This document shows positions 17,623 through 37,269 of a DNA stretch of 64,000 bases, in pieces. The stretch's first letter is position 1, and the number at the start of each line of letters is the position of its first letter. The notes beneath the pieces were generated by a model. The model saw only the letters and a list, made by a program, of their open reading frames with translations, did not search any database and was not told the DNA's origin. This stretch comes from Streptomyces sulfonofaciens (lineage in GTDB: Bacteria; Actinomycetota; Actinomycetes; Streptomycetales; Streptomycetaceae), in assembly GCF_014656295.1 (NCBI RefSeq), contig NZ_BNCD01000019.1, positions 1-64,000 of the forward strand, given 5' to 3'. A program made the position numbers and the translations under genes.

Positions 17623-18000
17623 CTCCCCATCTCCCGGTGTCTTCCCATTTCTCGGTGCCTCCCCGTCCCTCGGTGTCCCCCGGTGTCCCCCGGCGCCCCC
17701 CGGTGTCTCGGGGGCCCTGGGGGCCCCGGGGGCCCCGGGGCTCGCGGAGTCTTGCGTGGCTCTCGGATGCTCGTGTCCGTCGCCCGTCGCCCGTCGCCCG
17801 CCGCCCGCCGCCCGCCGCGTGCCGTGCCCGGCCGTACGTGCGGCGCACGCTCCGGCCGCCGCCGGTGCGGGGCGGCCCCGCTCGGTGCGGGGCGGCCCCG
17901 CTCGGTGCGGGGCGGCCCCGCTCGGCGCGGGGCGGCCCCGCTCGGCGCGGGGCGGCCCCGCTCGGCGCGGGGCGGCCCCGCTCGGCGCGGGGTGCGGGCC
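17623..18000. other. Repeat-rich intergenic region
   Basis: This 378-bp stretch has no supported gene. It contains C-rich degenerate repeats related to CCCCCGGTGT (about 17640-17720), a run of GTCGCCC/GCCGCCC heptamers (about 17778-17815) and the 20-bp tandem array described separately. It separates two minus-strand peptidase units and must include the promoter of the S9 gene. Confidence 0.6.
17861..17992. repeat. 20-bp tandem repeat array with internal dyads
   Basis: Six 20-bp units (CTCGGTGCGGGGCGGCCCCG, the first with two changes) and a 12-bp partial unit lie head to tail. Units at 17881 and 17901 carry T at position 6; those at 17921, 17941 and 17961 carry C. Each unit contains a 15-bp dyad, GCGGGGC-G-GCCCCGC across the join. 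The array ends 9 bp beyond the M20 peptidase stop, so the transcript would carry a series of hairpins. Confidence 0.9.
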
Positions 18001-26435: not shown

Positions 26436-26478
26436 CCGGCCCCGCCCGGCCCCCGCCACCGGTCGGGGGCGGGGCCGG
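26436..26478 (+). terminator. Possible hairpin between dehydrogenase and TetR genes
   Basis: Twelve-bp GC arms (26436-26447 and 26467-26478) with a 19-nt loop lie between the two genes, in keeping with the TetR gene having its own leaderless promoter. Confidence 0.4.
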
Positions 26479-26507
26479 TGACTGCGCGGCCGGACAGGCG
26501 CATGCAG

Positions 26508-26513
26508 TACGTT
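26508..26513 (+). promoter_or_regulatory. -10 element of a leaderless TetR gene transcript
   Basis: TACGTT lies 6 nt before the ATG at 26520 and supports this start over the in-frame ATG at 26502. Confidence 0.55.
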
Positions 26514-26519
26514 CGGGGC

Positions 26520-27329
26520 ATGTCCCAGCCCGCCAAGTCCTCCCGGCCGCAACCCCCGTCCGACCTCCCCGAACGCACCGCGGGCTCCCGCGCCGCCGCC
26601 CAACGGCTGAAAATGCGCCGCGAGCTCGCGGCCGCGGCCATGGAGCTGTTCGCCACCAAGGGTTACGAGGCGACGACGGTCGACGAGATCGCGGCAGCGG
26701 CCGGTGTCGCCCGCCGCACCTTCTTCCGGCACTTCCGCTCCAAGGACGAGGCGATCTTCCCGGACCACGACGACACACTGGTGCGCGCCGAGGCGGTGCT
26801 GAACGCCGCGCCCGCCCACGAGCACCCGCTCGACACGGTCTGCCGCGGGATCAAGGAAGTGATGAAGATGTACGCGGCGCGCCCGGAGATCTCCGTCGCC
26901 CGCTACCGCCTCACCCGCGAGGTCCCCACCCTGCGGGAGGCCGAGATCGCCTCCGTGGCACGCTACGAACGGCTCTTCACCCGCTATCTGCTGGGTCACT
27001 TCGACGAGCACGCCCACCACGACGCCACCAACGACGACCCGCTCCTCGCCGAGGTGGCCGCGTCCGCGGTGGTCACCGCCCACAACCACGTCCTGCGCCG
27101 CTGGCTGCGGGCCGACGGCAAGGGCGATGTCGAGGCCCAGCTCGACCACGCGTTCGCGATCGTCCGCAGGACCTTCGGCACCGGCATCGGCGCGGGCCGC
27201 ACCCAGGGCACCGTGCCGCCCGCCACCGCGACCGCCTCCGGCGACGTCCTGGTGACGGTGGCCCGCACGGACGCACCGCTCGACGAGATCATGCGCACCA
27301 TCGAGGGGGCGCTGCGGCAGCGGCCCTAG
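26520..27329 (+). CDS. TetR-family regulator of the ethylmalonyl-CoA locus
   Basis: A 269-residue regulator with an N-terminal TetR helix-turn-helix: AAAMELFATKGYEATTVDEIAAAAGVARRTFFRHFRSKDEAIF (in parts, residues about 40-80). The C-terminal ligand domain is longer than usual and ends in an extension, DVLVTVARTDAPLDEIMRTIEGAL. The position between the 3-hydroxyacyl-CoA dehydrogenase gene and the ccr cluster suggests control of this carbon pathway by an acyl-CoA, which is inference from context. The start at 26520 (MSQPAKSS) is supported by a -10 element 6 nt upstream. The last codons lie before a convergent acyl-CoA dehydrogenase-like gene. Confidence 0.85.
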   Translation: MSQPAKSSRPQPPSDLPERTAGSRAAAQRLKMRRELAAAAMELFATKGYEATTVDEIAAAAGVARRTFFRHFRSKDEAIFPDHDDTLVRAEAVLNAAPAHEHPLDTVCRGIKEVMKMYAARPEISVARYRLTREVPTLREAEIASVARYERLFTRYLLGHFDEHAHHDATNDDPLLAEVAASAVVTAHNHVLRRWLRADGKGDVEAQLDHAFAIVRRTFGTGIGAGRTQGTVPPATATASGDVLVTVARTDAPLDEIMRTIEGALRQRP

Positions 27330-29303: not shown

Positions 29304-30314
29304 CTAGGCAGCCTCGCCCTCCTCGGTCCGGGCCGGCCGCGGCGTCTGGTGCAGGCAGCGGCGGCGGTGCTCTCGGGGGCTGGTCCCGTAGGTGTTCCGG
29401 TAGGAGCGGGTGAAGTCGGCGTGGCTCTTGAACCCCCAGCGGGCGGCGATGGCGTGGATGGGGGTGCGGGCGAGCGCCGGGTCGCCTAGGTCGTGGTGGG
29501 CGCGCTCCAGCCGCCGACGGCGGATCATGGCCGCCACCGTGGTGCCCTCGGCCCTGAAGAGGCGGTGCAGGTAGCTCACGGAGATGTGGTGCGCGGCGGC
29601 GATCGCGGGCGGAGCGAGCTCCGGGTCGTGCAGACGGCTCTCGACGAAGGTCCGGATGCGCAGGGTCAGGGTCCGGCCGCGAGTCTCCGGCGCGAGGCGG
29701 TCCTCCGCGTCGAGGTGGTGGGCGAGGGTCGCGCAGAACAGGTCGATGACGACCCGCTCCAGCCGCGGCCCGTCCGAGGGCAGATAGGGGCCGCCGGAGG
29801 CAAGCTGGGTGAGCAGCCCGGCGAGCAGCGCGCCGACGCCCTCGTGGGCGGGCAGCCGGCCGGTCAGCAGCCGCTCGACCCTGGCGGGCGGCAGCGGCAC
29901 CCGGTTCCTGGGGACTTCGAGCCCGACACCGGTCATCTCGGTGGTGACGCAGTCGAAGGGGCGCGAGCTGTCGACGATGTACATCTCCTGCGCGTGATGC
30001 CGGCCCTGGCGGCCGTCCTGCGTGATGCCCACCGTGCCCTGCAACGGCAGCGTGAGGTGGTAGAGCTCCGGATCGGACTCCCGGATCAGCCGGGGTGTCC
30101 TGACGAACCGCACCGGCTGGATGGCGGCCGGCCACACCCGGACCCCGCCCATCTCCAGCACCCGCAGCTCGGCGCGGAAGGCGCCGGGCCGCTCGCTGTG
30201 CAAGTCCTGCGGAAACATGGTCTTCACCATGCACTCGCGAAAGCCCTCGAAGCGGTGCTCCGCGGGTAAGTCGGCTGTTCTGAAGACGGATTCCCTCAGC
30301 ACGGTACTCGACAC
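29304..30314 (-). CDS. AraC-family transcriptional regulator
   Basis: A 336-residue regulator with an N-terminal AraC-binding-like domain (FRAELRVLEMGGVRVWPA, YHLTLPLQGTVGITQDGR, MYIVDSSRPFDC) and a C-terminal double helix-turn-helix (IAAAHHISVSYLHRLFRAEGTTVAAMIRRRRLERAHHDL, then IAARWGFKSHADFTRSYRNTYGTSPREHR, quoted in parts). The start is the GTG at 30314, with a GGGGGGAGA ribosome site immediately upstream; a second GTG five codons downstream is possible. The gene is divergent from ccr across 730 bp that includes a good promoter with paired dyads, so it is a candidate regulator of the ethylmalonyl-CoA operon, by position only. Confidence 0.85.
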   Translation of the reverse strand: MSSTVLRESVFRTADLPAEHRFEGFRECMVKTMFPQDLHSERPGAFRAELRVLEMGGVRVWPAAIQPVRFVRTPRLIRESDPELYHLTLPLQGTVGITQDGRQGRHHAQEMYIVDSSRPFDCVTTEMTGVGLEVPRNRVPLPPARVERLLTGRLPAHEGVGALLAGLLTQLASGGPYLPSDGPRLERVVIDLFCATLAHHLDAEDRLAPETRGRTLTLRIRTFVESRLHDPELAPPAIAAAHHISVSYLHRLFRAEGTTVAAMIRRRRLERAHHDLGDPALARTPIHAIAARWGFKSHADFTRSYRNTYGTSPREHRRRCLHQTPRPARTEEGEAA

Positions 30315-31044
30315 TCTCCCCCCGGGTGCCTGCGGCTCGCTCGTCGCGGCTCGTCGGCCCGCACCGGCGCCGGCCGATGGGGAAAGTGCAGCAGAGTGCG
30401 ATAAACGGCCGATGAATGCCCGTCAGAGACGACCGCCGTCCGGGCCGGGCGGCCGATCACCGGACGGCGCGGCGGGCGCGCGCCGAGACCGGGGCCCGCC
30501 GCGCCTCGCCGAGCACTGCGCGTGAGCCGGTGGGCGTCATGGCCGTACGGGACGCGGCAGATACGGGTGAAGGCAGTAGACACGGCAGACGCAGAAGACA
30601 CCGCAGGCACCGCAGACACGGTAGGGGCATGGGAGGCGCAACACGATCGATCATCGCTCATCTGTCGGCCTCCCTATGCCAGATGAGACCAATTGACGGC
30701 ACGCAGTGCCTTGCCTTCTGGCACGCAGTGCCATACATTGAAAGTGTCCGGGCGGCCGGCGACCGGGGGTTCCCGGGGCCGGTTGTCCCAGCGGGCCCCG
30801 GCCCGCGCGCCCGGACGCCTGCGTCACAGGCATCCCAAGAGCACCACCCGGGCCGCCCGCACACGGCCACCGCCGCCTTCACCGAACCGACGGCAACCGC
30901 ACACCGCACCGGGGCACACCACGACACCCCGCCACGAGGGCACCACCCGCGCCCCAGCACCCGACGTCCCCAGCGTCCCCGCGACGCTTCCCGGCTTCCG
31001 GCCGCGCGCCGGCGCCGGGAGAACCCCTCGCCGGAGGCACCACC
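30315..31044. other. Long regulatory region between araC-type gene and ccr
   Basis: No gene is supported in 730 bp. About 30560-30630 has a degenerate GCAGACAC-type repeat (period about 10 bp). From 30650 to 30760 the sequence is AT-richer and contains the ccr-side promoter and two identical dyads. The remaining 290 bp would be the ccr leader, rich in CACCACGACACC-like C/A tracts with little self-pairing. Confidence 0.55.
30698..30739 (+). promoter_or_regulatory. ccr promoter with two identical dyad operators
   Basis: TTGCCT (30711-30716) and TACATT (30734-30739) are separated by 17 bp, a good vegetative-type promoter. GGCAC-GCA-GTGCC occurs twice, at 30698-30710 directly before the -35 and at 30720-30732 filling the spacer; the centres are 22 bp, two helical turns, apart. 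This geometry suits two dimers of a repressor binding cooperatively on one face. The regulator is unknown. Confidence 0.6.
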
Positions 31045-32409
31045 GTGAAGGAAATCCTGGACGCGATCCACGCGCAGTCGGCACAGCCGCCGACACCCAC
31101 CGCCACCGTCACGGCCGCGGACTTCGCGGCCCTGCCCCTGCCCGACAGCTACCGCGCGGTGACCGTGCACAAGGACGAGACCGACATGTTCGACGGCCTC
31201 GCCACCCGCGAGAAGGACCCCCGCAAGTCGCTGCACCTCGACGAGGTTCCCGTGCCCGAGCTGGGGCCCGGCGAGGCCCTGGTGGCCGTCATGGCCTCAT
31301 CCGTGAACTACAACTCCGTGTGGACCTCGCTCTTCGAGCCGCTGCCGACCTTCGCCTTCCTCGAACGCTACGGCCGCCTCGGTGATCTGGCGGCACGCCA
31401 CGACCTGCCGTACCACGTCATCGGCTCCGACCTCGCGGGCGTGGTGCTGCGCACCGGCGCCGGTGTGACCGCCTGGCGTCCGGGCGACGAGGTGGTGGCG
31501 CACTGCCTGTCCGTGGAGCTGGAGTCCTCCGACGGCCACAACGACACCATGCTCGACCCCGAGCAGCGCATCTGGGGCTTCGAGACCAACTTCGGCGGCC
31601 TCGCCGAGCTGGCCCTCGTCAAGTCCAACCAACTGATGCCCAAGCCGCGCCATCTGACCTGGGAGGAGGCCGCCTCCCCCGGGCTGGTCAACTCCACCGC
31701 CTACCGCCAGCTCGTGTCGCGCAACGGCGCGGGGATGAAGCAGGGCGACAACGTCCTCGTCTGGGGCGCCGGCGGCGGGCTCGGCTCGTACGCCACACAG
31801 TTCGCGCTGGCCGGCGGCGCCACCCCGATCTGCGTGGTGAGCAGCCCGCGGAAGGCGGAGATCTGCCGGGCCATGGGCGCGGAGGCCGTCATCGACCGCA
31901 GCGCGGAGGGCTATGCCTTCTGGGCGGACGAGGACCACCAGGACCCGCGCGAGTGGAAGCGGTTCGGGAAGAGGATCAGGGATCTGACGGGCGGCGAGGA
32001 CGTCGACATCGTCTTCGAGCACCCGGGCCGTGAGACCTTCGGCGCCTCGGTGTACGTGACCCGCAAGGGCGGGGCCATCGTCACCTGCGCCTCCACGTCC
32101 GGCTACCGGCACGAGTACGACAACCGCTACCTGTGGATGTCGCTCAAGCGGATCATCGGTTCGCACTTCGCCAACTACCGGGAGGCGTGGGAGGCCAACC
32201 GGCTCGTCGCCAAGGGCCGGATCCATCCGACGCTGTCGCGCGTGTACCCGCTGGCGGAGACCGGCCAGGCGGCGTACGACGTGCACTGCAACCTCCACCA
32301 CGGCAAGGTCGGCGTACTCGCGCTCGCGCCCCGGGAGGGGCTCGGCGTGCGCGACCCCGAGCTGCGGGCCCGCCACCTCGACGCCATCAACCGCTTCCGC
32401 ACCCCGTGA
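31045..32409 (+). CDS. ccr: Crotonyl-CoA carboxylase/reductase
   Basis: A 454-residue medium-chain dehydrogenase/reductase that reductively carboxylates crotonyl-CoA to ethylmalonyl-CoA with NADPH. The NADPH site is VLVWGAGGGLGSYATQFAL (about 238-256). The residues known to hold CO2 in the Kitasatospora enzyme (Asn81, Phe170, Glu171, His365) are all present here with an offset of nine as Asn90, Phe179, Glu180 (WGFETNFGG) and His374 (IGSHFANY), so carboxylation rather than simple reduction is expected. The GTG at 31045 follows CGGAGG by about 8 nt. It heads an operon with meaA, the lyase and the hydratase genes. Confidence 0.96.
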   Translation: MKEILDAIHAQSAQPPTPTATVTAADFAALPLPDSYRAVTVHKDETDMFDGLATREKDPRKSLHLDEVPVPELGPGEALVAVMASSVNYNSVWTSLFEPLPTFAFLERYGRLGDLAARHDLPYHVIGSDLAGVVLRTGAGVTAWRPGDEVVAHCLSVELESSDGHNDTMLDPEQRIWGFETNFGGLAELALVKSNQLMPKPRHLTWEEAASPGLVNSTAYRQLVSRNGAGMKQGDNVLVWGAGGGLGSYATQFALAGGATPICVVSSPRKAEICRAMGAEAVIDRSAEGYAFWADEDHQDPREWKRFGKRIRDLTGGEDVDIVFEHPGRETFGASVYVTRKGGAIVTCASTSGYRHEYDNRYLWMSLKRIIGSHFANYREAWEANRLVAKGRIHPTLSRVYPLAETGQAAYDVHCNLHHGKVGVLALAPREGLGVRDPELRARHLDAINRFRTP

Positions 32410-32417
32410 GGAGAGCC

Positions 32418-34466
32418 ATGACCGAGTACCCGGCCGGGCGTGCCAAGGACCGGCCCTGGCTCATGCGGACCTACGCGGGACACTCCACCGCGCAGGCGTC
32501 CAACGCCCTGTACCGGCAGGGCCTCGCGCACGGCCAGACCGGCCTGTCGGTGGCCTTCGACCTGCCCACGCAGACCGGTTACGACCCCGACCACGTGCTC
32601 GCGCGCGGCGAGGTCGGCCGGGTGGGGGTGCCCGTCGCGCACCTGGGCGACATGCGCAGCCTCTTCGAGGGCATCCCGCTGGAGCGCACCAACACCTCGA
32701 TGACCATCAACGCCACCGCCATGTGGCTGCTGGCCCTCTACCAGGTCCTCGCCGAGGAGCAGGGACTCGACGAGGGCGGCATCGCCCGGCTGGCCGGCAC
32801 CACGCAGAACGACATCGTCAAGGAGTACCTGTCCCGCGGGACGTACGTCTTCCCACCGGGCCCGTCCCTGCGGCTGACCACGGACCTGATCGCGTACACC
32901 GTCCACCGCATGCCGAAGTGGAACCCGGTCAACATCTGCAGCTACCACCTCCAGGAGGCCGGGGCGACGCCCGTCCAGGAGATCGCCTTCGCGCTCTCCA
33001 CCGCGGTCACCGTGCTGGACGCGGTCTTCGCCCGCGGTCAGGTTCCCGAGGAGCGCCGCGGGGAGGTGGTCGGCCGGGTCTCGTTCTTCGTCAGCGCCGG
33101 GGTCCGCTTCGTCGAGGAGATGTGCAAGATGCGCGCCTTCGGCCGCCTCTGGGACCGCATCACCCGCGAGCGGTACGGCATCGAGGACGCCCGGCAGCGC
33201 CGGTTCCGCTACGGCGTGCAGGTGAACAGCCTCGGTCTGACCGAGTCGCAGCCGGAGAACAACGTCCAGCGGATCGTGCTGGAGATGCTGGCGGTGACCC
33301 TCTCCAAGGACGCCCGCGCACGTGCCGTGCAACTGCCCGCCTGGAACGAGGCGCTGGGGCTTCCGCGGCCCTGGGACCAGCAGTGGTCGCTGCGCATCCA
33401 GCAGGTCCTCGCCCATGAGAGCGACCTCCTGGAGTACGACGACATCTTCGCCGGCTCCGACGTCATCGAGACCGAGGTGGCCGGGCTGGTGGAGCGGTCG
33501 CTCACCGAGATGGAACGCATCGAGGAGATGGGCGGCGTGCTCGCGGCCGTCGAGTCGGGCTACCTGAAGGAACGGCTGGTGGCCTCGCACGCGGCGCGCC
33601 GGGCCCGTGTCGAGTCCGGCGAGGAGGAGATCGTCGGCGTCAACTGCCACCGGGCGACCGAGCCCAGCCCGCTGACGGCCGACCTCGGCACGGCCGTGCT
33701 GAGCGTGGACCCCGGCGCGGAGGCACAGGCGGTGGCGGCGCTCGACCGCTGGCGGGCCACCCGCTGCCGACCGCCGTTCAACCGTCCCCGGCCCTGCAAG
33801 GCGCTGGAGCGGCTGAAGGAGGCCGCGGCCGGCACCGAGAACCTGATGGAGGCCACGCTGGAGTGCGCTCGCGCCGGCGTGACGACGGGCGAGTGGGCGG
33901 GCGCGCTGCGCGAGGTGTTCGGCGAGTACCGGGCCCCCACCGGCGTCTCCTCCGTGCCGGTCGCGGTGCCCGCGCGGGACGGCACAGGGCTGGCCGACGT
34001 CCGTGCCGCGGTGCAGGGCACGGCCGCGGAACTGGGCTGCGGCAGGCTCCGGCTGCTGGTCGGCAAGCCCGGGCTCGACGGGCACTCCAACGGCGCCGAG
34101 CAGATCGCGGTGCGCGCCAGGGACGCCGGCTTCGAGGTGGTCTACCAGGGCATCCGGCTGACGCCCGGGGAGATCGTGGCGGCCGCGCTCGCCGAGGACG
34201 TGCACTGCGTGGGCCTGTCGATCCTGTCCGGGGCGCACACCGCGCTGGTGCCCGACGTGCTGCGGCGGCTGCGGACGGCAGGTGCGGCGGACGTCCCGGT
34301 GGTCGTGGGCGGCATCATCCCCGCCGATGACGCCGAGGCGCTGCGGCGCGCGGGCGTGGCCGCCGTCTTCACCCCGAAGGACTTCGGTATCACGGAGATC
34401 ATCGGCCGTATCGTCGACGAGATCCGGCAAGCCAACAAGCTCGACCCCGTGGAGGTCCCCGCATGA
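32418..34466 (+). CDS. meaA: Ethylmalonyl-CoA mutase (MeaA)
   Basis: A 682-residue coenzyme B12-dependent mutase. The N-terminal TIM-barrel part carries GLSVAFDLPTQTGYDPDH, TNTSMTINATAMWLLALY and NICSYHLQEAGATPVQEIAFAL as in the methylmalonyl-CoA mutase large-chain family; the C-terminal cobalamin domain has GKPGLDGHSNGAEQIA (D-x-H-x-x-G) and GLSILSGAHTALVPDVL. Both domains on one chain and the position after ccr identify ethylmalonyl-CoA mutase, which makes methylsuccinyl-CoA. It starts 8 nt after the ccr stop with a GAGGAGAG ribosome site and overlaps the lyase gene by ATGA. Confidence 0.95.
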   Translation: MTEYPAGRAKDRPWLMRTYAGHSTAQASNALYRQGLAHGQTGLSVAFDLPTQTGYDPDHVLARGEVGRVGVPVAHLGDMRSLFEGIPLERTNTSMTINATAMWLLALYQVLAEEQGLDEGGIARLAGTTQNDIVKEYLSRGTYVFPPGPSLRLTTDLIAYTVHRMPKWNPVNICSYHLQEAGATPVQEIAFALSTAVTVLDAVFARGQVPEERRGEVVGRVSFFVSAGVRFVEEMCKMRAFGRLWDRITRERYGIEDARQRRFRYGVQVNSLGLTESQPENNVQRIVLEMLAVTLSKDARARAVQLPAWNEALGLPRPWDQQWSLRIQQVLAHESDLLEYDDIFAGSDVIETEVAGLVERSLTEMERIEEMGGVLAAVESGYLKERLVASHAARRARVESGEEEIVGVNCHRATEPSPLTADLGTAVLSVDPGAEAQAVAALDRWRATRCRPPFNRPRPCKALERLKEAAAGTENLMEATLECARAGVTTGEWAGALREVFGEYRAPTGVSSVPVAVPARDGTGLADVRAAVQGTAAELGCGRLRLLVGKPGLDGHSNGAEQIAVRARDAGFEVVYQGIRLTPGEIVAAALAEDVHCVGLSILSGAHTALVPDVLRRLRTAGAADVPVVVGGIIPADDAEALRRAGVAAVFTPKDFGITEIIGRIVDEIRQANKLDPVEVPA

Positions 34467-35428
34467 CCGGCCCCGTCAACCGCCTGCGCCCGCGCCGCTC
34501 GTGCCTCGCGGTGCCCGGCTCCAACCCGCGCTTCCTGGAGAAGGCCCAGTCGCTCCCCGCGGACCAGGTCTTCCTCGATCTGGAGGACGCCTGCGCGCCG
34601 CTCGCCAAGCCGGAGGCCCGGCACACCGTCGTCAGGTTCCTCAACGAGGGCGACTGGACGGGCAAGACGCGTGTGGTGCGGGTCAACGACTGGACGACCG
34701 AGTGGACCTACCGCGACGTCGTCACGGTCGTGGAGGGCGCGGGCGCACGTCTCGACTGCATCATGCTGCCCAAGGTCCAGGACGCCCAGCAGGTGGTGGC
34801 GCTCGACCTGCTGCTGACGCAGATCGAGAAGACGATGGGCTTCGAGGTCGGCAGGATCGGCATCGAGGCGCAGATCGAGGACGCCAGGGGCCTCGTCAAC
34901 GTCGACGCGATCGCGGCCGCTTCCCCGCGGCTGGAGACGATCGTCTTCGGGCCCGCCGACCTCATGGCGTCGATCAACATGAAGTCGCTGGTCGTCGGCG
35001 AGCAGCCGCCCGGTTATCCGGCCGACGCGTACCACTACATCCTGATGCGGATCCTGATGGCCGCCCGCGCACACGACCTGCAGGCCATCGACGGCCCCTA
35101 CCTCCAGATCAGGGACGTGGACGCCTTCCGAACGGTCGCGCAGCGGGCCGCGGCCCTCGGCTTCGACGGCAAGTGGGTGCTGCACCCGGGCCAGGTGGCG
35201 GCCGCCAACGAGGTCTTCTCACCCTCCCAGGAGGACTACGACCACGCCGAGCTGATCCTGGACGCCTACGCGTACCACACGTCGGAGGCGGGCGGCGCGA
35301 AGGGCTCGGCGATGCTCGGCGACGAGATGATCGACGAGGCCAGCCGCAAGATGGCGCTGGTGATCGCCGGCAAGGGGCGCGCCGCCGGCATGCGCCGCAC
35401 CAGCTCGTTCGAGGCCCCGGAGGCGTGA
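34463..35428 (+). CDS. HpcH/HpaI-type lyase, probable beta-methylmalyl-CoA lyase
   Basis: The 321-residue protein belongs to the citrate lyase beta/malyl-CoA lyase family: SCLAVPGSNPRFLEKAQ at the N-terminus, QVFLDLEDACAP (metal/Asp), RIGIEAQIEDARGLVNV (Glu ligand), VFGPADLMASINM and DGKWVLHPGQVAAAN. In the ethylmalonyl-CoA pathway it would cleave beta-methylmalyl-CoA to glyoxylate and propionyl-CoA, and may also condense or cleave malyl-CoA. Its ATG overlaps the meaA stop (ATGA) and its stop is followed directly by the MaoC-like gene, so it is in the middle of the operon. Confidence 0.92.
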   Translation: MTGPVNRLRPRRSCLAVPGSNPRFLEKAQSLPADQVFLDLEDACAPLAKPEARHTVVRFLNEGDWTGKTRVVRVNDWTTEWTYRDVVTVVEGAGARLDCIMLPKVQDAQQVVALDLLLTQIEKTMGFEVGRIGIEAQIEDARGLVNVDAIAAASPRLETIVFGPADLMASINMKSLVVGEQPPGYPADAYHYILMRILMAARAHDLQAIDGPYLQIRDVDAFRTVAQRAAALGFDGKWVLHPGQVAAANEVFSPSQEDYDHAELILDAYAYHTSEAGGAKGSAMLGDEMIDEASRKMALVIAGKGRAAGMRRTSSFEAPEA

Positions 35429-35433
35429 CGCGC

Positions 35434-35991
35434 ATGCGGTTCGGACGCACCTTCGAGGAGTTCGAGGTCGGCGCCGTGTACCGGCACTGGCCCGGCAAGA
35501 CGGTCACCGAGTACGACGACCACCTCTTCTGCCTGCTGACGATGAACCACCACCCGCTGCACCTGGACGCGCACTACGCCGGGCGGGCCACGGACTTCGG
35601 GCGGAACGTCGTGGTGGGCAACTACGTCTACTCGCTGCTGCTCGGCATGTCGGTGCCCGACGTGTCGGGCAAGGCGATCGCCAATCTGGAGGTGGAGTCG
35701 CTGCGGCACGTGGCGCCGACCTTCCACGGCGACACCCTCTACGGCGAGACGGCGGTGCTGGACAAGACCCCGTCCAGGTCCCGGCCCGACCGGGGCGTCG
35801 TGCAGGTGGAGACCCGGGGCCACAAGCAGGACGGCACGCTGGTGTGCACCTTCCGCCGCAAGGTGCTGGTACCGACGCGGGCGTACGTCGAGGAGCACGG
35901 CGGCGAACAGCCCGGCCGTCCGCAGCCCCGCCACCCGCAGGGCCCCGACCCCGCGCACCCCGCGGCCCCGGACACCCCGCGCCCGCAGTGA
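35434..35991 (+). CDS. MaoC-like dehydratase, probable mesaconyl-CoA hydratase
   Basis: A 185-residue hotdog-fold hydratase: RTFEEFEVGAVYRHWPGKTVTEYDDHLFCLLT followed by MNHHPLHLDAHYA (the catalytic Asp/His region), NVVVGNYVYSLLLGMSVPD, and VSGKAIANLEVESLRHVAPTFHGDTL. In the pathway it would hydrate mesaconyl-CoA to beta-methylmalyl-CoA. The ATG at 35434 is preferred over the GTG at 35425, because GGAGG is 10 nt before the ATG but only about 1 nt before the GTG. The last 30 residues are Pro-rich and not part of the fold. Confidence 0.9.
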   Translation: MRFGRTFEEFEVGAVYRHWPGKTVTEYDDHLFCLLTMNHHPLHLDAHYAGRATDFGRNVVVGNYVYSLLLGMSVPDVSGKAIANLEVESLRHVAPTFHGDTLYGETAVLDKTPSRSRPDRGVVQVETRGHKQDGTLVCTFRRKVLVPTRAYVEEHGGEQPGRPQPRHPQGPDPAHPAAPDTPRPQ

Positions 35992-36063
35992 GCCCGCACA
36001 GCCCAGTGACCCCCTCGGAGCCCGGACGGCCCGGGAGCCCGGAGAGCCAGGAGAAGTGACGCC

Positions 36064-37269
36064 ATGAGCCGACTCGCCCAGACCCACGGTCTCACCGACG
36101 TCCAGCGGGAGATCCTCGCGACGGTCCGTGACTTCGTCGACAAGGAGATCCTCCCGGTCGCCACCGAGCTGGAGCACCGGGACGAGTACCCGCAGGCGAT
36201 CGTGGACGGGCTCAGGGAACTCGGGCTCTTCGGCCTGATGATCCCGGAGGAGTACGGGGGTCTCGGCGAGTCGCTGCTGACGTACGCGCTGTGCGTGGAG
36301 GAGATCGCCAGGGGCTGGATGTCGGTGTCCGGCATCATCAACACGCACTTCATCGTGGCGTACCTCCTCCAGCGGCACGGCACCCAGGAGCAGCGGGAGC
36401 GCTTCCTGCCCCGGATGGCGGCGGGCGAGGTGCGGGGCGCGTTCTCGATGTCGGAGCCGGGGCTCGGCTCCGATGTGGCGGCCATCACCTCCAAGGCGGT
36501 GCGGGACGGCGACGCGTACGTGCTGACCGGCCAGAAGATGTGGCTGACGAACGGCGGAACCTCCACGCTGGTGGCCGTGCTGTGCCGGACGGGCGAGGGG
36601 CGCGCCGAGGGTGACGCTCCCCACAGGTCCCTGACGTCCTTCCTGGTGGAGAAGGAGCCCGGCTTCGGCGAGGTACGTCCCGGTCTCACCATCCCCGGGA
36701 AGATCGAGAAGATGGGCTACAAAGGTGTGGACACCACCGAATTCATCATGGATGGACTGCGCGTTCCCGCGGACCGCGTGCTCGGCGGGGCCACCGGCCG
36801 AGGGTTTTACCAAATGATGGACGGAGTGGAGGTCGGCCGCGTCAACGTTGCAGCGCGTGGTTGCGGCGTCGCCCGGCGCGCCTTCGAGCTGGGCATCGCC
36901 TACGCCCAGCAGCGGCACACCTTCGGCCGGCCGATCGCCCAGCACCAGGCGGTTCAGTTCAAGCTGGCGGAGATGGCTACCAAGGTTGAGGCGGCTCATG
37001 CCATGATGGTGAACGCAGCGCGCAAAAAGGACTCCGGGGAGCGAAACGACCTTGAAGCAGGGATGGCGAAGTACCTCGCCTCCGAGTACTGCAAAGAGGT
37101 GGTGGAAGACGCCTTCCGGATCCACGGCGGCTACGGCTTCTCGAAGGAGTACGAGATCGAGCGCCTCTACCGGGAGGCCCCGATGCTGCTGATCGGCGAA
37201 GGTACCGCCGAAATCCAGAAAATGATCATCGGGCGGCGGCTCCTCGAGGAGTATCGGTACCAGGGATAG
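36064..37269 (+). CDS. Acyl-CoA dehydrogenase, probable methylsuccinyl-CoA dehydrogenase
   Basis: A classical 401-residue acyl-CoA dehydrogenase: FGLMIPEEYGGLGES, FSMSEPGLGSDVAAI, MWLTNGGTSTLVAVLCRTG, and the C-terminal GGYGFSKEYEIERLYREA followed by IGEGTAEIQKMIIGRRLL, where the Glu of GEGT is the catalytic base. Position at the end of the ccr operon indicates oxidation of (2S)-methylsuccinyl-CoA to mesaconyl-CoA. The Rhodobacter enzyme is, as I recall, longer at the N-terminus, so substrate should be confirmed. The gene begins 72 bp after the MaoC-like gene; its 3' half has lower GC than its neighbours. Confidence 0.88.
   Translation: MSRLAQTHGLTDVQREILATVRDFVDKEILPVATELEHRDEYPQAIVDGLRELGLFGLMIPEEYGGLGESLLTYALCVEEIARGWMSVSGIINTHFIVAYLLQRHGTQEQRERFLPRMAAGEVRGAFSMSEPGLGSDVAAITSKAVRDGDAYVLTGQKMWLTNGGTSTLVAVLCRTGEGRAEGDAPHRSLTSFLVEKEPGFGEVRPGLTIPGKIEKMGYKGVDTTEFIMDGLRVPADRVLGGATGRGFYQMMDGVEVGRVNVAARGCGVARRAFELGIAYAQQRHTFGRPIAQHQAVQFKLAEMATKVEAAHAMMVNAARKKDSGERNDLEAGMAKYLASEYCKEVVEDAFRIHGGYGFSKEYEIERLYREAPMLLIGEGTAEIQKMIIGRRLLEEYRYQG

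Follow-up and report, generated by a model that had tools for sequence, protein, structure and literature searches.

A conserved tandem dyad at the Streptomyces ccr promoter is a probable operator pair for an MftR-like TetR regulator encoded upstream

The window analysed here, a stretch of 64,000 nucleotides from Streptomyces sulfonofaciens, carries ccr as the first gene behind a promoter from which it is separated by a leader of roughly 300 bases (Table 1). The product of Ccr, ethylmalonyl-CoA, is a polyketide building block, and its formation opens a route of acetate assimilation in streptomycetes. Upstream, an acyl-CoA-dehydrogenase-like gene and an AraC-family gene lie between ccr and a gene for a TetR-family regulator, the start of which is uncertain (candidate ATGs at 26502 and 26520); searched for in the 80 ccr relatives described below, the upstream dehydrogenase-like protein gave only two weak matches of <40 bits. 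In the available text of the respective reports, SCO6473 of S. coelicolor is a crotonyl-CoA reductase (PMC3087709), SCO6474 a TetR protein and SCO6475 a FadB-like protein (PMC7324645); judged by gene order, SCO6473 and SCO6474 would be the equivalents of ccr and tetR. The role of ccr in acetate assimilation by streptomycetes is also documented in the available text of PMC4606968, according to which the ccr operon is needed on acetate and the expression of ccr1 from its native promoter on a glucose/dextrin medium is below quantification. These expression data fit a repressed operon.

Table 1 Features of the ccr locus in the window
Feature	Position	Strand	Remarks
TetR-family regulator, MftR-like	26478..27329	+	most likely reader of the dyads; longest frame
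AraC-family gene	29304..30314	-	AraC_binding_2, HTH_18; rejected as dyad reader
Upstream conserved element GATCGATCAT-CGCTCAT...CAGATGAG	30645..30687	+	about 52 bp before dyad 1
Operator dyad 1 (putative), GGCAC-GCA-GTGCC = GGCACGCAGTGCC	30698..30710	+	abuts -35
-35 element TTGCCT	30711..30716	+	directly 3' of dyad 1
17-bp spacer	30717..30733	+	contains dyad 2
Operator dyad 2 (putative), GGCAC-GCA-GTGCC = GGCACGCAGTGCC	30720..30732	+	within spacer
-10 element TACATT	30734..30739	+	majority form in relatives TACGTT
Conserved 5' leader, foldable	30746..30831	+	
Leader helix	30746-30754/30808-30816	+	GUCCGGGCG pairs with CGCCCGGAC
Leader hairpin GCCUG-CGUCA-CAGGC	30817-30831	+	
ccr, crotonyl-CoA carboxylase/reductase	31045..32409	+	TIGR01751, 618 bits, cut-off 379
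Putative operon, genes downstream of ccr	32406..37269	+	
Methylmalonyl-CoA-mutase-like gene	32406-34466	+	
CitE/RipC-like lyase gene	34463-35428	+	below NCBIfam cut-offs
Acyl-CoA-dehydrogenase-like gene	36064-37269	+	below NCBIfam cut-offs; a further frame precedes

A sequence-only reading of this DNA had described two identical dyads with centres 22 bp apart that flank and fill the ccr promoter, and every element of that layout is present where it was placed. The exact GGCACGCAGTGCC occurs twice in the 64-kb window, both times at the ccr promoter, and GGCACNNNGTGCC was observed twice against a mean of 0.52 in shuffled windows. An identical pair of 5-3-5 dyads at most 60 bp apart was reached by only 2 of 200 window shuffles; the real window holds six such pairs, the other five belonging to one GC-rich tandem repeat at 17868-17968, in which six copies of a 20-bp unit contain the dyad CGGGGCGGCCCCG. 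Single dyads, however, are at chance level: GGCACNNNGTGCC alone is not unusual in the organism's own genome (70 sites versus 72 for the reversed control) and, because of this, four exact matches in that genome (L119-L122), which lie in coding frames or near unrelated genes, were dropped. With up to two mismatches allowed, GRCACNNNGTGYC-N9-GRCACNNNGTGYC was found at two places in the 8.6-Mb genome versus three for a control pattern, namely the ccr promoter (no mismatch) and the gap between a GntR gene and aceE (one mismatch). The shuffles together with the conservation reported below uphold the earlier claim that the pair is unlikely to have arisen by chance, and we reject chance as its origin, the conservation being decisive. 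We also rejected a reading of the dyads as a transcribed RNA hairpin, because they precede the expected transcription start.

Conservation upstream of ccr in other streptomycetes was checked using 594 confirmed ccr relatives from named Streptomyces genomes, of which the best 80 were analysed, with position 2 of a dyad allowed to be A or T and its penultimate position to be T. Among these best 80 of 594, all 80 loci have a pair with 22-bp spacing at most 450 bp before ccr; dyad 1 is immediately followed by TTG, and a single base separates dyad 2 from TAnnnT, the majority form being GGCACnnaGTGYC-TTGYnnnnT-GRCACGnnGTGYC-ATACGTTGA. The overlap with the core promoter that marks a repressor operator is likewise found throughout, dyad 2 lying inside the 17-bp spacer in 80/80 relatives. 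Every one of the 80 Streptomyces loci keeps an intact left half of dyad 1, 77 of them have degeneracy in one or both inner half-sites, and in none of these best 80 of 594 are both copies perfect. Of 19 loci in other genera, all have a degenerate inner half-site, and a single one has a degenerate left half of dyad 1. A pair with two perfect copies was also met at a single other ccr promoter (L021). Because perfect pairs are so few elsewhere, the operator pair in the window appears stronger than usual, and its two perfect copies look to be a peculiarity of this genome.

In the window, the conserved element upstream of dyad 1 contains a CTCATCTG/CAGATGAG inverted repeat. Allowing at most one mismatch, GATCGATCAT is present no more than 700 bp upstream at 64 of the 80 ccr loci, with CGCTCAT and TGAG half-sites, and we regard the element as a second, putative regulatory site. 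Upstream of aceE, and of gltA in many loci, lies GATCGATCA, and three ppdK loci (L157, L158, and L169) have CGCTCATCTGAGC upstream. Within the foldable 5' leader, the inner helix is present in most relatives and absent from shorter leaders; in 33 chosen sequences 96.8% of the cells pair, versus 27-44% in slid controls. Covariation in the leader amounts to 11 cells that change on both sides, a number reached by 0 of 500 shuffles; these changes fall on only two of 21 pairs, a spread that 256 of 500 shuffles attain. Rfam returned no match for the leader at the gathering threshold and none on the plus strand up to an E value of 5, and we ignored a mir-183 match on the opposite strand (14.6 bits versus 53). 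The leader is possibly an undescribed leader RNA.

The most likely reader of the dyads is, on the comparative data, the TetR protein, one of two candidates that the sequence-only reading had named. Its N-terminal helix-turn-helix (TetR_N, PF00440; E 2.2e-17, 63 bits versus a cut-off of 24) places it in the TetR family, and its best NCBIfam family is MftR (TIGR03968, E 2.9e-26). Because it misses the equivalog cut-off of that family (92.2 bits versus 224.9), we classify it, by sequence, as MftR-like and not as MftR. The C-terminal domain of MftR (PF17754) scores 22.6 against a cut-off of 22.7, 0.1 bit below it, in the window protein and 33 in a TetR paralogue. The MftR structure from M. tuberculosis (8x0a) ranked fourth in a sequence-profile search and sixth by fold, using a structure model (mean pLDDT 75, pTM 0.59) that served for fold comparison only; the uncharacterised TetR proteins 2rae and 2dg7 ranked above MftR in the structure searches, SCO3201 was close to it, and MftR was absent from the six structure matches of a single-sequence search. 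In the model, residues 249-280 form a C-terminal strand-strand-helix extension, which is conserved and common to the paralogues. Of the best 80 of 594 loci, 79 encode an orthologue of the TetR protein (74-92% identical) on the upstream side of ccr, and at the eightieth the contig ends 387 bp upstream of ccr; the candidate thus accompanies the pair wherever this could be tested. The distance from the orthologue to ccr is <600 bp in 64 loci and at least 1 kb in 11. No dyad was found upstream of tetR itself, and within the window only the two copies at ccr match even the relaxed pattern.

Of 41 Streptomyces genomes searched for the TetR protein, 40 gave a match; a search of the family yielded it in 54 of 61 genomes, two of which (G542 and G550) gave no more than a distant match (46%). 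For the co-occurrence of gene and dyads outside the genus we chose 30 genomes of the family, ten of them without an orthologue; 28 gave a ccr match, yielding 30 loci. All 19 loci with the TetR gene no more than 1.5 kb from ccr have the 22-bp pair, and none of the 11 loci without a neighbouring TetR gene has it. Seven of these 11 come from TetR-negative genomes in two genera, three are ccr paralogues in TetR-positive genomes (L302, L304, and L305), and the sequence of L303 is incomplete. Outside the family, neither the TetR protein (at E 1e-5) nor the pair was found at any of 40 ccr loci, whose upstream regions were picked by hand from the 89 matching genomes outside the genus in a class search; a looser GTCACCGCGTGAC is present once in two of these regions, and a lone copy with one mismatch occurs in two. 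The pair thus strictly co-occurs with the TetR gene across the family. Because the genomes are related, these counts are not independent of phylogeny and we attach no probability to them; a Fisher value computed for 19/0 versus 0/10 is likewise not taken as one.

The operator of MftR offers a comparison with a characterised protein. In the available text of PMC8728441, MftR of Mycobacterium smegmatis is a TetR repressor of the mycofactocin genes with a footprinted operator, a conserved palindrome T-N2-GGCA-N5-TGCC-N2-A, and C12-C18 (long-chain) acyl-CoAs as effectors. Both dyads in the window fit this palindrome over its GGCA-N5-TGCC core, the part that was scored, and because dyad and TetR candidate were in hand before this comparison was made, the match is an independent check. 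Single substitutions in the palindrome did not impede binding of MftR (PMC8728441) and the GGCA-N5-TGCC core may therefore not be the whole site. The recognition helices are also alike (GIARRTLFRYY in 8x0a, GVARRTFFRHF in the window protein), as are the protein family, the acyl-CoA theme, and the best NCBIfam match. In contrast to MftR, the window protein falls below the equivalog cut-off, would have other target genes, carries the extra conserved C-terminal strand-strand-helix, and is associated with two putative tandem operators. Two further regulators were compared. RamB-type ScfR regulators control acetyl-CoA assimilation and answer to CoA esters of the pathway (PMC10370305, available text), and they share this control with the system proposed here but belong to a protein family unrelated to TetR. 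For GlnR of Streptomyces venezuelae, the available text of PMC3087709 lists the SCO6473 (ccr) promoter among those enriched in immunoprecipitates; it gives no GlnR motif there, and the dyad is not what it describes.

The dyad is not confined to ccr. In the citrate synthase (gltA) promoter of Streptomyces it is present in 29 of 29 loci, 28 with GGCACTSAGTGCC and one with GGCACTGCGTGCC (31 genomes matched and gave 30 loci, of which L152 was left out). In other genera 10 of 29 gltA loci have it, all of them in TetR-positive genomes; the gltA loci without a dyad come from 10 TetR-positive and 9 TetR-negative genomes, one of which, G532, has a looser GGCACGCAGTGAC. One genome (G008) keeps the gltA dyad with no TetR found; this is a draft genome in which the ccr match starts 204 bases into its contig, and an assembly gap can explain the missing TetR. 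Exact GGCACTSAGTGCC occurs 24 times in eight genomes versus six times for a control, with eight sites at gltA, three in the gap at a second citrate synthase gene (shared by a divergent gene), three at ppdK, one in a gap between aceA and an ScfR gene, two at ccr, and seven beside a TetR paralogue; by our reading all 24 thus fall at genes related to acetyl-CoA or next to such a paralogue. Single examples of ppdK, aceA, ScfR, GntR, and each of the two citrate synthases were confirmed by Pfam; for the aceE fragment, the general transketolase domain was the only match. The aceA-ScfR site, at position 1501 of L161, lies between the isocitrate lyase gene and the gene for the short-chain fatty acyl-CoA regulator. 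In the organism's own genome no dyad was found near the second citrate synthase gene or the nearest TetR paralogue; GGCACACAGTGCC precedes malate synthase there (L123), an observation from one genome for which we make no claim.

The TetR paralogues are 42-47% identical to the window protein, have the same recognition-helix residues (R79, R80, F82, F83, R84, and F86), and adjoin a tandem GGCAC...GTGCC pair of their own, with centres 23 bp apart, in 9 of 9 loci. One copy of this pair precedes a -35-like TTTAC (8/9), the other ATATGGT or ATAAGGT. In L113 the paralogue gene lies beside etfBA-like genes and a zinc-ribbon (zf-ChsH2) gene, the zinc-ribbon match being equal to the cut-off. A paralogue as the sole reader of the gltA sites is disfavoured because in five genomes (G006, G014, G018, G027, and G028) only one TetR of this type was found in each and the gltA dyad is kept. 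We infer that in Streptomyces the dyad spread to other promoters of the acetyl-CoA node, where it would be read by the TetR protein or a close paralogue. The sequence-only reading had postulated a dedicated repressor of the ethylmalonyl-CoA pathway; a conserved operator pair on the promoter, from which repression would follow, agrees with its first half, and "dedicated" proves too narrow, given the dyads at gltA, the second citrate synthase, ppdK, isocitrate lyase, and other genes.

This breadth bears on the identity of the reader, since the gltA, ppdK, and aceA sites are far from the TetR gene. Another global acetyl-CoA regulator, for example a FadR-like GntR protein encoded beside aceE or an unlinked factor, could read the dyads, with the TetR gene merely co-inherited. 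In a wide scan for the tandem pattern (gap 7-12), 119 of 295 Streptomyces genomes matched and 12 matched the reversed control, and 22 of the 30 loci listed have a GGCAC-N3-GTGCC pair beside a GntR gene; of the other loci listed, five adjoin a TetR paralogue, one is at ccr (L021), and one adjoins an unrelated gene (L028), a tandem site that we leave unexplained. On the other side of the GntR-linked pair lies aceE in all seven loci read, and L017 has the same flanks. In this gap (L001-L005 and others) the pair has 22-bp centres and is followed by TGATCGATCATCGATCA, and the GntR protein is FadR-like. Palindromes of this build, 13 bp long around a 3-bp centre, could be expected of FadR-type GntR proteins as well. 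The pair between GntR and aceE may belong to the same regulon or may be the GntR protein's own site; among 28 aceE loci examined to tell TetR from GntR, no more than two, L306 (one mismatch) and L307, have a pair. Against a reader other than TetR, the TetR-less ccr paralogues in L304 and L305 have no dyads although their genomes encode the TetR protein elsewhere, the paralogues in L113 and L114 lie beside the same pair with no adjoining GntR gene read, and the dyad matches the MftR operator core. In addition, two TetR-negative genomes encode a GntR protein (58-60% identical) beside aceE and have no dyads at aceE or ccr, a point of low weight, as TetR-positive L308 (GntR 59% identical) likewise has no pair at aceE. 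We consider another global regulator an unlikely reader.

Our working hypothesis, which we hold to be quite probable, is that the dyads are the operator pair of the upstream MftR-like TetR protein, that this protein represses the ccr operon, and that its effector is probably an acyl-CoA. The sequence suggests binding by two dimers: because the dyads are 22 bp, or about two helical turns, apart, the dimers would share one face of the DNA, the first in contact with the -35 element and the second over the spacer between -35 and -10. RNA polymerase would thereby be excluded from the promoter and the operon kept off until a small effector, probably an acyl-CoA, frees the protein when acetyl-CoA units need assimilating. 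The effector, which we infer from the relationship to MftR and from the target genes, is the least certain part of this scheme. One operator between -35 and -10 and another at -35, two turns apart, form a classic polymerase-excluding layout of repressors, and activators usually have their sites farther upstream; an operator within the spacer is most naturally taken to serve repression. The TetR protein could instead bind the dyads and activate ccr, as reported for CcrR of Methylobacterium extorquens AM1, a TetR-family protein that activates a gene in the ethylmalonyl-CoA pathway (Hu and Lidstrom 2012, cited in PMC4606968), the mutant of which has half the Ccr activity (PMC4207312, available text). 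The conserved upstream element TGAG...AAATT would be in line with activation, but one operator fills the spacer and the other abuts -35 in 80/80 loci, and we judge activation to be improbable. The second candidate of the sequence-only reading, the AraC protein, has in its favour a gene divergent from ccr and close to it in the window, but it was not found, even at E 1e-3, in any of the best 80 of 594 loci, all of which keep the dyads, and we give it practically no credence as their reader.

A TetR repressor with tandem operators would distinguish the Streptomyces case from CcrR, known here from citations and described as an activator, through which control of ccr by a TetR-family protein is already known. 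In a literature search that covered mostly openly accessible papers, no regulator or operator of a Streptomyces ccr was found described. More broadly, and with somewhat less than even confidence, we propose an undescribed Streptomyces regulon at the acetyl-CoA node with GGCAC-N3-GTGCC as its operator, in which the MftR-like TetR protein beside ccr and its etfBA-linked paralogue would sense short acyl-CoAs and jointly control the ethylmalonyl-CoA pathway, both citrate synthases, pyruvate dehydrogenase, pyruvate phosphate dikinase, and isocitrate lyase; the site at ccr, with its tandem pair, would be the ancestral one, gltA and the other genes having been recruited later. The interest of such a system lies in its unusually broad set of targets in central metabolism. 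Direct tests of the question are possible with the candidate regulator gene, the defined operator, and the few candidate co-regulated genes named here, and the same elements could serve to steer precursor supply in producers of antibiotics. Through the dyads the cell can probably switch the ethylmalonyl-CoA pathway on or off as its supply of acyl-CoA changes, and the regulon, if it exists as proposed, would decide between biomass and polyketide precursors as the destination of acetyl-CoA.
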